The notes below the pieces were generated by a model. That model made no database searches and was not told the origin of the DNA. It saw nothing but the letters and a program-made list of their open reading frames with translations. Shown here in pieces: positions 40,311 through 57,280 of a stretch of 64,000 bases of DNA. The DNA lies in assembly GCA_948144175.1 (NCBI GenBank), contig CANXME010000320.1, positions 310,001 to 374,000 of the forward strand. The letters run 5' to 3'. The position numbers and the translations under genes are program-made. This DNA comes from Closterium sp. NIES-65. Taxonomy: Eukaryota > Streptophyta > Zygnematophyceae > Desmidiales > Closteriaceae. The number at the start of each line of letters is the position of its first letter. The first letter of the stretch is position 1.

Positions 40311-41347
40311 TGTCAACGGGAGTTGGGTATTGGCCCCGTCCTCGCTTGGGCGGAGCCGACTTCGTGGTCGGGTGTGAGGGGAACAGCCGACCTGCAGCAG
40401 TGGGTGAGCAGGGTGTGAGCTGGTCGACTTCGGGGAGGTCGACTTGGAAGTCGACCTGCGGAGGACGTCGAAGCCGACTCCGGCGGTCGGCTAACGGACC
40501 GCTGGTCGACCTGCGGGTGGTCGACTGGACCTGGTGGTCGACGAAGGAGGGACTGACGTCGACCTTGACGCAGGACGCCGAGCAGTCGGGCGTCGAGTAG
40601 CGGGGCGTCAACTTCGTGACGCGCTTCGGGCGGCCGACGTGGGTGGTCGGCCGACTGTGCTGGTCGACGTGGAGCTGGTCGACCAGAGGGGACGTCGACC
40701 TGGAGGAGGTCGACCTATGGTATCGTCGACCTGGTGAGATCGACGTGGAGGTGGTCGTCGACTTGGGAGGTCGACGGACGGGAGCTGCTGGTCGACATGG
40801 TTGCCTGGTCGACCAGGTTACCTGGGTGACGAAGTGCTGCGGAGGAGTGCGACGGTCGACCAGGCGAAGTTGGCGAGCCCGACCTCGGTGGTGGTATCCC
40901 GAGGTCGTCGTGGCGAATCAGAGGCAGTCGCCAGCTCAAGGTTGACGTGGTGTGTGCGCTGTGCAGGTGACAAGACTCTGCGCGGCGCGCAGGGTGCACT
41001 GCTGTCTTGCGTGAGCAACGCTGTCACGCCGTCGACCTGCGACGTTGGCACGCCATCGACTTTGCCTTGCTGGAGCGCGATCGACCAAGTCGTGCTGGAA
41101 CGCGGTCGACCAAGCTGCGCTGGCAGTTGGCCGACCTGAATGCTTGCTCTGATGTAGTGTTGGTATGCCAACTTCATTGTAACAATTGTTCTGAACTTTT
41201 CCTAGTGAAACTCTTGCCAATTTTCCCCGTGGACTAGCAAGTAGTGTGTGCACAAGGAAACCGACTAAGGAAGAGAGAACGCAGAGATCACACGAGCACA
41301 CGTGCCTAGCCCGTAGCCTAGCTCCCGTTGCTGCAGTTATCTCCGCA
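40311..41347 (+). repeat. copia-5 5' LTR
   Basis: 1,037 bp, TGTCAACGGG...ATCTCCGCA, with about 20 GTCGAC palindromes. Confidence 0.93.
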
Positions 41348-46721: not shown

Positions 46722-47757
46722 TGTCAACGGGAGTTGGGTATTGGCCCCGTCCTCGCTTGGGCGGAGCCGACTTCGTGGTCGGGTGTGAGGGGAACAGCCG
46801 ACCTGCAGCAGTGGGTGAGCAGGGTGTGAGCTGGTCGACTTCGGGGAGGTCGACTTGGGAGTCGACCTGCGGAGGACGTCGAAGCCGACTCCGGCGGTCG
46901 GCTAAAGGACCGCTGGTCGACCTGCGGGTGGTCGACTGGACCTGGTGGTCGACGAAGGAGGGACCGACGTCGACCTTGACGCAGGACGCCGAGCAGTCGG
47001 GCGTCGAGTAGCGGGGCGTCAACTTCGTGACGCGCTTCGGGCGGCCGACGTGGGTGGTCGGCCGACTGTGCTGGTCGACGTGGAGCTGGTCGACCAGAGG
47101 GGACGTCGACCTGGAGGAGGTCGACCTATGGTATCGTCGACCTGGTGAGATCGACGTGGAGGTGGTCGTCGACTTGGGAGGTCGACGGACGGGAGCTGCT
47201 GGTCGACATGGTTGCCTGGTCGACCAGGTTACCTGGGTGACGAAGTGCTGCGGAGAGTGCGACGGTCGCCCAGGCGAAGTTGGCGAGCCCGACCTCGGTG
47301 GTGGAATCCCGAGGTCGTCGTGGCGAATCAGAGGCAGTCGCCAGCTCAAGGTTGACGTGGTGTGTGCGCTGTGCAGGTGACAAGACTCTGCGCAGCGCGC
47401 AGGGTGCACTGCTGTCTTGCGTGAGCAACGCTGTCACGCCGTCGACCTGCGACGTTGGCACGCCATCGACTTTGCCTTGCTGGAGCGCGGTCGACCAAGT
47501 CGTGCTGGAACGCGGTCGACCAAGCTGCGCTGGCAGTTGGCCGACCTGAATGCTTGCTCTGGTGTAGTGTTGGTATGCCAACTTCATTGTAACAATTGTT
47601 CTGAACTTTTCCTAGTGAAACTCTTGCCAATTTTCCCCGTGGACTAGCAAGTAGTGTGTGCACAAGGAAACCGACTAAGGAAGAGAGAACGCAGAGATCA
47701 CACGAGCACACGTGCCTAGCCCGTAGCCTAGCTCCCGTTGCTGCAGTTATCTCCGCA
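46722..47757 (+). repeat. copia-5 3' LTR
   Basis: 1,036 bp, over 99% identical to the 5' LTR. Preceded by the purine tract GTAGGGGAG. Confidence 0.93.
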
Positions 47758-53523: not shown

Positions 53524-53585
53524 GTCTTCTTGTATTTGAGTGTTAAAAGGAAAAATAACTTTAAACTCTAACCGCTCTCATACCA

Positions 53586-54016
53586 TGTTGGGCTGAGGTG
53601 CCCTAGGATCTTTGTAGAGCTTAAAGTTTGAGTAGGATTGTAATAGCGGAAGCGTTTGAATGAAAGTCCTTGAACCACCTTGCGCTAATATGTGAGGGCA
53701 AAGTAAGTTGATTAAACAAGCAAATACAAAGGTTTATATAAGAGTACAAGGAACGAATAGATAAGTTCAAACCGTTTTACTGTTGCGATTCGATACAGTG
53801 CGACTCGGGCAACTGCTCAATGTCGAGTCAGTTGTGTGTCCTTGCTGTCGCGCTGTATTTGTCAAGTCAAAGGTCGCTGACCTTTGACCTTCGCGTAACC
53901 TCCAGGCGGTTACCCTAACCTCCGAGGGTTGACTCGCGATGCTTCGATTTGGACTGCTTCGCTAGTGTCCTGAGTTTTGACACGACAGAGGCGCTTAAGA
54001 CTTATTATTCCCAACA
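53586..54016 (-). repeat. copia-6 5' LTR
   Basis: 431 bp; the TATA motif and GTCAAAGGTC palindrome are conserved with copia-4. Confidence 0.95.
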
Positions 54017-54021
54017 GCCCT

Positions 54022-54131
54022 CACATACTAGCGCAAGGTGGTTCAAGGACTCTCATTCAAACGCTTCCGCTATTACATCATCCTACTCAGACTTTAACTC
54101 TACAAAGATCCTAGGGCACCTCAGCCCAACA
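54022..54131 (+). repeat. copia-4 3' LTR, last part
   Basis: Resumes after copia-6 and ends CAGCCCAACA, followed by the target duplication ACGTT. Confidence 0.9.
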
Positions 54132-54409: not shown

Positions 54410-57280
54410 TCAGGCATATGCAGCAACTGCTTGGTCAAAGGCAGCTTCAGATGCTAGTTGGCGCTGTACAAGAATGTGATCCGGTGCCACCGTCCTCAGT
54501 TGGCTGCACAGCACAGCGCAACAGCACTCCAGGTTAGACACACTTGAGCCCTCATCACAGGGTAAATTCCCTCGCAGCAGCGGGCGGCAGTGAGCACTCA
54601 CTTGAGGTAGCGCGTGGCGGGCTTCCCTCGGTGCAGCGAGCAGACGACGAGGTTGGCGAGCGTGTTGGCGTCCTTGGCGTCCTGCCACCACCAAGCACCA
54701 AGCACCAAGGACGGACCAGTGGACACAGCAGCGCCAGCACGGCAGGAGAAGACGGGATTGGCAAGAGCACACATGCGAGTCTCAGCATCCAGAGGCAGCA
54801 CAACAGAACCCAGCAGCTCACCTTGTTGAGGGCGTCCAGCAGCAGCTCACCTTGTTGAGGGCGTCCAGCAGCAGCTCACCTTGTTGAGGGCGTCCAGCAG
54901 CAGCTCACCTTGTTGAGGGCGTCCAGCAGCAGCTCACCTTGTTGAGGGCGTCCAGCAGCAGCTCACCTTGTTGAGGGCGTCCAGCAGCAGCTCACCTTGT
55001 TGAGGGCGTCCAGCAGCAGCTCACCTTGTTGAGGGCGTCCAGCAGCAGCTCACCTTGTTGAGGGCGTCCAGCAGCAGCTCACCTTGTTGAGGGCGTCCAG
55101 CAGCAGCTCACCTTGTTGAGGGCGTCCAGCAGCAGCTCACCTTGTTGAGGGCGTCCAGCAGCAGCTCACCTTGTTGAGGGCGTCCAGCAGCAGCTCACCT
55201 TGTTGAGGGCGTCCAGCAGCAGCTCACCTTGTTGAGGGCGTCCAGCAGCAGCTCACCTTGTTGAGGGCGTCCAGCAGCAGCTCACCTTGTTGAGGGCGTC
55301 CAGCAGCAGCTCACCTTGTTGAGGGCGTCCAGCAGCAGCTCACCTTGTTGAGGGCGTCCAGCAGCAGCTCACCTTGTTGAGGGCGTCCAGCAGCAGCTCA
55401 CCTTGTTGAGGGCGTCCAGCAGCAGCTCACCTTGTTGAGGGCGTCCAGCAGCAGCTCACCTTGTTGAGGGCGTCCAGCAGCAGCTCACCTTGTTGAGGGC
55501 GTCCAGCAGCAGCTCACCTTGTTGAGGGCGTCCAGCAGCAGCTCACCTTGTTGAGGGCGTCCAGCAGCAGCTCACCTTGTTGAGGGCGTCCAGCAGCAGC
55601 TCACCTTGTTGAGGGCGTCCAGCAGCAGCTCACCTTGTTGAGGGCGTCCAGCAGCAGCGCCTCGGCGTCCTCGAAGTTACCGGAGTGCATCTGGGCGAGC
55701 GCGCTGCCGTTGAGCAGCGCCACCGTCGGGCTGAACTTGTCCGCCAGCTCCTGAAACACGTACGTCGCCTCCTGCACCTTCGACCCGCCCTGCTTGCATG
55801 CACACATGCACACACACACACCCGCCACACAGCCCACCGCACCACACCATGTGAGCGGCCATAATTGCGGAAGCACAGAGTGTGCATGAGGGTGAGAAAG
55901 AGCAGGGGTGGGCGGGTGGGCAGTGGAGTGGAGTGGAGTGGAGTGGAGTGGAGTGGAGTGGAGAGGAGAGGAGTGGAGTGGAGTGGAGAGGAGAGGAGTG
56001 GAGTGGAGTGGAGAGGAGAGGAGTGGAATGGAGAGGAGAGGAGTGGAGTGGAGAGGAGAGGAGAGGAGAGGAGAGGAGAGGAGAGGAGAGGAGAGGAGAG
56101 GAGAGGAGAGGACGAACCATGGCGAGGCTGACCCAGCCGAGGGCGAGCTGTGTGAGCGTGGCGTCCTCGTCCACCTGCTGCATCGCCTTCACCTGCTTCT
56201 CCGCTAGGTCCGCACGGTCCATCAGTAGAAACACCTGCACGCTCAACGCCATGCTGGGGGGAGAAGTGGCAGCACCACAGCACATCCCAGCACACCCCAG
56301 CTCAGCACACCACAGCCCAGCACAACACAGCGCGGCACGGCATGGTTCAGCACAGAACAGCAGGCACAGCACAGCAGGGCACAGCACCACACAGCACTCG
56401 ACATTTGTCCTTCCGCCTACACACATGCCACCAGCACCAAAAGCAGCAGCACAACCACCCCATCCCATCCGAGCAGCACCACCCCATCCCACTGCCCCAC
56501 CCCTGCCCAACCCCCCACCACGCCCCGTCCCCCCACCCACCCCACACCCTCCCACCGCCCCACACCCTCCAACCGCCCCGCCCCATCCACCCAGCCCGCC
56601 CCGTCCCGCACGTACAGCTCGAGGTTGCCGGGGAGGGCGTGCGCGATCTTGAGCGCGTCGACGAAGTTCTGTTCGCGCGCGTACACGGTGCCCGCCACGA
56701 GCAGCAGCGTCGCGTTCTTGCAAATCACGGGGTCCGACAGATACCCCTCCAGCCCCGCCACCACCGCGTCCTGTCGGCCCGCCCCGCGCACCAAGTCAGA
56801 CACCAGATTCCACCCCAATTTGAACGAACTCAACACTTGCGACGAACGCGGAAAGCGCGACGAATGCGAAGCGCGCAGGGTGGGCGGCGCACCTTGTTGC
56901 TTTTGTCGGCGAGGTAGGTTGCGAGCAGCTTGACGGCCTGCAGCGCCGTGGCGGACGACTCCGTGATCTCGTCCATCACCAGCTGCCGCGGGCCACGTGG
57001 GAGGGAAGGCACGCTCGTCAGAGCACGGACCACGAGGAATGCCGGAAACGAGTGTTACGCGTGAGGGCGGCGGCGCACCTGGTAGCTGCCGAGCGCACCT
57101 GGTAGCTGCCGAGCGCACCTGGTAGCTGCCGAGCGCGATGTAGGAGCGGTACACGATGGTGTCGCGCTCGATGCTCTCCGCCTCCGACAGCCCTCCCACG
57201 CCGCTCTCGTTGATCGCCGCCTGGTACGCGCCCAGCTGAAAGTTGTTCCGCAGAGAGAATAGCGCATCCGGACCGCTCAT
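54410..57280 (-). CDS. COPE: Coatomer subunit epsilon (epsilon-COP)
   Basis: Seven exons: 57119-57280, 56893-56982, 56616-56770, 56118-56253, 55634-55789, 54602-54681 and 54410-54503. All join in phase through GT-AG introns to give 290 codons, the usual length for plant epsilon-COP. It is a cytosolic subunit of the COPI vesicle coat that works with alpha- and beta'-COP in Golgi-to-ER and intra-Golgi traffic. The protein is a TPR-like helical solenoid: start [20 protein letters not shown], then [95 protein letters not shown] and the C-terminal [20 protein letters not shown]. Oddities: the donors of exons 1 and 5 are tandemly multiplied, and the exon 4 donor (GTTCGT) is followed by a GAGTG/GAGAG repeat. 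A gypsy LTR lies about 300 bp upstream. Confidence 0.95.
54822..55654 (-). repeat. 29-bp array of tandem splice donors, exon 5/intron 5 of COPE
   Basis: The last 20-21 bases of exon 5 plus GTGAGCTG form a 29-bp unit repeated without visible change. Exon-type ends CTCAACAAG|GTGAG occur at exon edges 55634, 55605 and so on down to 54822, that is 29 donors at exactly 29-bp spacing. The proximal copy is the functional exon end, because only it is preceded by the unique coding sequence GAGGACGCCGAGGCG. The array is over 85% of the 952-bp intron 5. Confidence 0.95.
55918..56111. repeat. GAGTG/GAGAG pentamer repeat in COPE intron 4
   Basis: About 38 pentamers, starting 7 bases inside the exon 4 donor. 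The coding-strand RNA is C/T-rich. Confidence 0.9.
57079..57139 (-). repeat. 20-bp triplicated splice donor, exon 1/intron 1 of COPE
   Basis: Three copies of GCGCTCGGCAGCTACCAG|GT. Donor exon edges are at 57119, 57099 and 57079. Only 57119 gives the family-standard [15 protein letters not shown] join in frame. Confidence 0.93.

Follow-up and report, generated by a model that had tools for sequence, protein, structure and literature searches.

How a gene can carry 29 consecutive copies of one splice donor and still encode its protein, and by what route such copies arise, are the questions raised by a locus in Closterium sp. NIES-65. The locus lies in a stretch of 64,000 nucleotides (hereafter, the window) that is part of contig C320, and searches covered a genome of 874 Mb in 2400 contigs. 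The explanation we favor, with a probability of roughly three in four, is a recent and fast tandem amplification of the donor junction, tolerated through use of the first donor, with the remainder staying intronic.

Twenty-nine donors in COPE

The gene at this locus has seven exons on the minus strand and encodes a complete membrane-traffic protein of 290 amino acids, residues 4-289 of which match Pfam Coatomer_E (E = 1.2e-106); the protein also matches epsilon-COP in the PDB (E = 3.1e-74). These values bear out the name COPE given to it in an earlier, sequence-only reading of this DNA, which also called the gene essential, as COPI genes are generally taken to be. According to the gene model, exon 1 (57119..57280) begins with the ATG and is followed by exon 2 (56893..56982), exon 3 (56616..56770), exon 4 (56118..56253), exon 5 (55634..55789), exon 6 (54602..54681) and exon 7 (54410..54503), which includes the stop. 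Intron 5 spans 54682..55633 (952 bp). COPE was found once in the assembly: a protein search of the genome gave seven matches, all on C320 and inside the gene.

The end of exon 5 and the start of intron 5 form the unit of an array at 54811..55658 (minus strand), for which TRF reports a period of 29, 29.2 copies, 100% matches and no indels. By exact count the 29-bp unit occurs 29 times at a constant spacing of 29, with a 7-bp partial copy in addition, and its 23-bp core occurs 29 times across the whole window. CAACAAG|GTGAGC is present in 29/29 exact units, i.e., each carries AAG|GTGAG, and the duplicated segment contains AG|GT. Hence, 29 invariant and complete donors at exact 29-bp spacing are found at the end of exon 5, as had been proposed, and the span first given for them (54822-55654) is this array less a few bases. 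The exon part of the unit had been put at 20-21 bases; exon 5 actually matches the unit exactly over 25 nt, and 7 bp are common to both ends. With head-to-tail units of 29 bp in 29.2 copies, the array falls in the minisatellite or VNTR class (units of roughly 10-100 bp), and that 848 perfect bp are not attributable to chance is not in question.

The outcome of choosing each donor was obtained by translation. The first donor (55634|55633), at the 3' end of exon 5, gives the full-length 290-residue product and is the only one of the 29 to do so. The second shifts the frame, and translation stops after 271 residues; from donor 3 to donor 29, one common TGA is read (55601..55603, minus strand; bases 31-33 beyond the first donor), and the product ends after 243 residues. 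These consequences, including the count of 28 unproductive donors out of 29, agree with those predicted earlier. Given that the gene is intact and the other 28 donors are unproductive, donor 1 is probably the one used in RNA, and with its use the COPE gene still works. With a single unit in place of the array, intron 5 would measure 140 bp (952 - 28 x 29) and still be a GT-AG intron.

Masking of the later donors by RNA structure was considered and rejected, as predicted accessibility does not clearly favor the first donor (0.42): the second has 0.41, the last 0.40 and the intermediate ones 0.27-0.33. In mammals, passages of PMC5585400 describe a tendency of SRSF1 to favor the downstream (intron-proximal) donor; enhancers between competing donors are there said to favor the downstream donor likewise, although this effect is unclear in that paper's own global data. 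First-donor use among identical sites is therefore not a given and, since predicted accessibility does not single out donor 1 either, what would make it win is a real question.

Other repeats are also seen in and around COPE. An array of (GGAGA)n of about 190 bp lies in intron 4 (window 55922-56112) and begins near the donor. At 53570-54130, inverted arms of about 115 bp (GTTGGGCTGAGGTGCCCTAGGATC... and its reverse complement) were found by eye around about 300 bp; this structure, which resembles the end of a mobile element, ends about 280 bp beyond the COPE stop. The same tandem arrays, of 31-bp and 17-bp units, are present at 40663-40825 and again at 47074-47236, about 6.4 kb apart, which suggests a duplicated element.

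Donor arrays in other genes

What the sequence-only reading did not contain is that the exon 5 array belongs to a genome-wide class, of which COPE itself carries a second member: at the end of exon 1, a 20-bp unit in 3.2 copies (57073..57136, minus strand; 100% by TRF) straddles the donor according to its breakpoints. The best non-self match to the COPE array region is a synaptotagmin-like (SYT) gene (Pfam SMP_LBD, 5.8e-10) in which an exon ends in a 26-bp x 14.2 array. Genome-wide, three AAGGTGAG words at gaps of 6-36 gave 5743 matches (796 for the reversed-word control) and three CAGGTGCG words at gaps of 8-34 gave 2796 (460 for the control).

For each word pattern, the arrays listed come from the first 100 or so matches, in contig order. 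Outside COPE, 20 of the 36 donor-word arrays examined begin, by eye, at a coding exon end. For AAGGTGAG, these are 7 of 16 inspected, two of which belong to copies of a single GST-like gene, out of at least 18 distinct arrays listed (C53:1633412 and C68 left out); for CAGGTGCG, they are 13 of the 20 retrieved from those listed (C88 left out), L063 and L080 being less sure. The 16 arrays not at a coding exon end include several plain satellites or element-like repeats.

Genes bearing such arrays include glucosidase II beta, with two arrays within one gene (matches of 5.9e-6 and 4e-6), a GST (1.5e-6), eIF2B epsilon (2.4e-9), serine palmitoyltransferase LCB2 (1.6e-4) and, by a weak match (0.039), a WD-like gene; kinase-like (GEGAYG) and AP2-like names were assigned by eye. 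Profile and sequence matching gave nothing significant for the L073 and L076 proteins, and no Pfam match was obtained for 8/8 short exon fragments of array genes or for three more array-gene proteins, one of which was later matched in the PDB. In the arrays seen, unit lengths range from 16 to 42 bp, and in the exon-anchored ones the units resemble the end of their own host exon and differ from gene to gene; the exact exon-unit match in L065 and L072 is merely 3-5 nt. The array of L047 (C53:930674) has 27-bp donor units with one frame free of stop codons, such that use of a later donor would insert in-frame 9-residue repeats into the WD-like protein.

Direct repeats are present in the clean arrays. 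The exon and intron parts together exceed the unit, the excess being the direct repeat, in 9 of 16 exon-anchored arrays: 7 bp in COPE exon 5, 4 in COPE exon 1, 4 in SYT, 6 and 2 in glucosidase II beta, 8 in L070, 1 in L078, 12 in L063 and 8 in L073, the ends of the last two being harder to place. For the other seven, the two parts fall short of the unit and no direct repeat is readable. Only 3/16 arrays have a unit length divisible by 3, so the units bear no visible sign of coding constraint, as expected if the extra units remain intronic.

Variation among units could be followed in the kinase-like array L003, where 9 of 78 units had other lengths and were set aside. The donor GT is constant in 69/69 full-length (32-bp) units, and the donor word presents 4 changes in 552 cells, compared with 39 in 1656 for the remaining positions, 23 of these being one common variant. 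From these values it is evident neither that the extra donors are maintained nor that they are being lost, and there is no sign of selection against them.

Long minisatellites also occur in the same gene loci, at L039 5839-6228, L060 3717-4204, L040 4411-4679 and L044 3623-4398, with units of 25, 33, 20 and 17 bp, respectively, that are 96-100% alike.

Origin and tolerance of the arrays

The strongest evidence on the origin of the arrays is provided by the SYT-like gene, which has its 14-unit array on C1686 and a paralog with a single donor on C1650. The C1650 junction, CAACAAG|GTGAGCCTG, is exactly that predicted by collapsing the 14-unit array, i.e., an array-less junction of ancestral type. 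In the flanks, 572 of 578 aligned bases are identical, with gaps of 10, 11 and 18 bp; the joined-flank match is 84% when the gaps and a local divergent stretch are counted. Two diverged relatives (75%) of L044's gene also have a single AAGGT at the array position, and array length is the same in three close copies of that gene (C27, C1809 and C485).

Copy number differs between close copies in four sister genes, mostly by whole units. Glucosidase II beta has 7 vs 10 units of 38 bp between flanks that are 99-100% identical, and the WD-like gene has 8 vs 7 units of 27 bp. Across 2391 bp, the GST-like pair differs by 3 mismatches and by a single 62-bp gap within the array, 62 bp being the higher-order period of that array. 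The kinase-like arrays have about 78 (L003, C1691), 82 (L004, C1279) and 82 (L005, C1271) donor units of 32 bp, counts that depend on our own splitting rule. Some helicase exons with Helicase_C matches are present in two or three copies with equal scores on separate contigs, which is consistent with widespread segmental duplication.

That the COPE expansion is recent, as the sequence-only reading held, gains support by analogy with these sister arrays, the array-less state being seen in the SYT paralog and not in COPE itself. The absence of differences among the 29 COPE units fits either recent expansion or ongoing homogenization.

Under the favored explanation, a direct repeat common to the exon end and the intron start (the 7 bp in COPE) would have led to tandem duplication across the exon 5 donor, and slippage or unequal exchange would then have added units rapidly and held them identical. 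The spliceosome would take the first, exon-anchored donor, and the remaining 28 units would be spliced out with the enlarged intron whose 5' part they form; the COPE array would thus be near-neutral intron sequence and one instance of a process acting on many donors in the genome. Among the buffering, braking and neutral roles suggested earlier, neutrality with the first donor used seems to be the best fit. The raw excess of donor-word arrays over controls with the donor GT changed to CT might nevertheless mean more than passive tolerance.

These controls gave 175 matches for AAGCTGAG (reversed, 31) and 414 for CAGCTGCG (reversed, 85), and the acceptor word CTTGCAGG gave 304 (reversed, 0). In terms of distinct arrays in contigs up to C84 among the matches listed, AAGGTGAG has at least 18 and AAGCTGAG 5, CAGGTGCG has 20 and CAGCTGCG 1, and CTTGCAGG has 0, a weak comparison in that it depends on the share of real acceptors among CTTGCAGG words; at least three listed CTTGCAGG arrays (C450, C479 and C1385) run on into GTG and resemble donor arrays. 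As single words in a sample of 142,030 bases, array-masked and gene-biased, AAGGTGAG occurs 18 times, AAGCTGAG 5, CAGGTGCG 18, CAGCTGCG 11 and CTTGCAGG 12, and the reversed words GAGTGGAA and GCGTGGAC occur 10 and 7 times. Hence, the CAG pair presents an array excess beyond single-word frequency, while the AAG pair has no excess of distinct arrays after this normalization; its excess persists in raw matches, which give long arrays more weight. The same gene loci often contain other types of array, and a general minisatellite-forming tendency, tolerated at donors, explains most of the word excess.

It is possible, though we consider it doubtful, that donors are mutation hotspots, i.e., that exon-intron donors give rise to arrays more often than the rest of the intron does, either through GTGAG/GTGCG meeting direct repeats in exons or through transcription. 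This would be compatible with the favored explanation. The counts for the CAG pair (20 arrays vs 1, with single words at 18 vs 11) point in this direction, whereas those for the AAG pair follow its single words (at least 18 arrays vs 5, with single words at 18 vs 5) and the other arrays in the same loci speak against it. The intron part is less than half of the unit in 14/16 arrays, placing the right-hand end just past the donor, although degenerate array ends may bias this part downward.

A stronger proposal, which we regard as improbable, is that donor-targeted amplification seeds arrays of identical donors at very many exon ends, together with a strict first-donor rule or a copy-number dial for mis-splicing and decay. 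As each unit has both AG and GT, the junction would be the same again after any whole number of units had been spliced out, and stepwise shortening of the arrays, in the manner of zero-length recursive exons, would also be conceivable.

That the array acts as a brake on expression, with some transcripts using donors 2-29, meeting early stops and being degraded, so that copy number would tune COPE output, is quite unlikely. The early stops from 28 of the 29 donors and the intact state of all 29 are in line with it, but the diversity of unit lengths and genes is not, and copy number that shifts between close copies would be odd for a tuned setting. Slightly less likely still is that the arrays are favored as platforms on which serial donors attract U1 snRNP and aid splicing or shield the transcript from early polyadenylation. 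Both the raw excess over the GT-to-CT controls (5743 vs 175 and 2796 vs 414) and the constant GT of the L003 units would agree with this, yet single-word frequency accounts for part of that excess and the AAG pair loses it in distinct arrays after normalization. An assembly artefact (a repeat collapsed or inflated), which the perfect identity of all units could suggest, is very improbable and was rejected as the main reading, given that other genes have arrays of this class built from different units, that segmental copies of sister arrays share internal variants, and that 848 bp is short relative to long reads if the assembly is the NIES-65 long-read assembly.

Relation to known repeats and introns

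Like minisatellites or VNTRs, the arrays have head-to-tail, nearly identical units of 16-42 bp whose copy number shifts mostly by whole units. They differ in being anchored at the exon and in having a unit made of the host exon end plus the donor, so that any copy could serve as a splice signal. Introner-type mobile introns are one element sequence inserted at many sites, whereas the units here follow their own host exon end and vary between genes; an introner-like insertion was rejected as the units derive from each host exon. In the human CBS 844ins68 allele, a duplicated exon-intron boundary is reportedly tolerated in a similar way, one splice-site copy being used; that duplication, however, is of 68 bp, on the acceptor side and in two copies.

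Tandem duplication of AG|GT segments is an established source of introns, known as the Rogers model (PMC4974935; PMC2891723). Described cases are a tandem-duplicated AGGT segment that spans an intron-exon boundary in potato RdRp (PMC4974935), introns gained in Drosophila when segments with AGGT were duplicated in tandem (PMC2891723), and two fission-yeast genes, cited in PMC4974935, in which a 24-bp exonic AGGT segment is repeated several times. The arrays share with this model the duplication of an AG|GT segment, in potato also across an intron-exon boundary. The difference is that a new intron results there, while here the intron appears to have pre-existed, judging from the single-donor SYT paralog and from the 140-bp intron left in COPE on collapse, and the donor side alone has multiplied, reaching 29 copies in COPE and, in the kinase-like gene, about 82. 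The intronic minisatellite CeRep25B of C. elegans is linked to splicing decisions and over-represented near alternative splicing regions, according to PMC4039745; it resembles the present arrays in lying near splice decisions, but is a named repeat, whereas the units here are built from each local exon and donor.

For Closterium NIES-65, PMC10407611 gives a genome of 876 Mb, about 5 introns per gene, a mean intron of 485 bp, a haploid phase and a long-read assembly; the terms "minisatellite" and "donor site" are absent from its main text. Among the titles and abstract openings listed in searches of an open-access library, none reported multi-copy donor-straddling arrays. To our knowledge, the choice among identical donors has been studied mostly with few competing sites. 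In this genome, natural series run from 3 to about 80 near-identical donors and amount to a natural experiment in the selection of one start site among many identical ones by the splicing machinery, and the array-less or different-length copies of some genes are built-in controls for donor choice. With a donor junction going from 1 to 14 copies within about 1% sequence divergence, the arrays would also be a fast route to intron growth.
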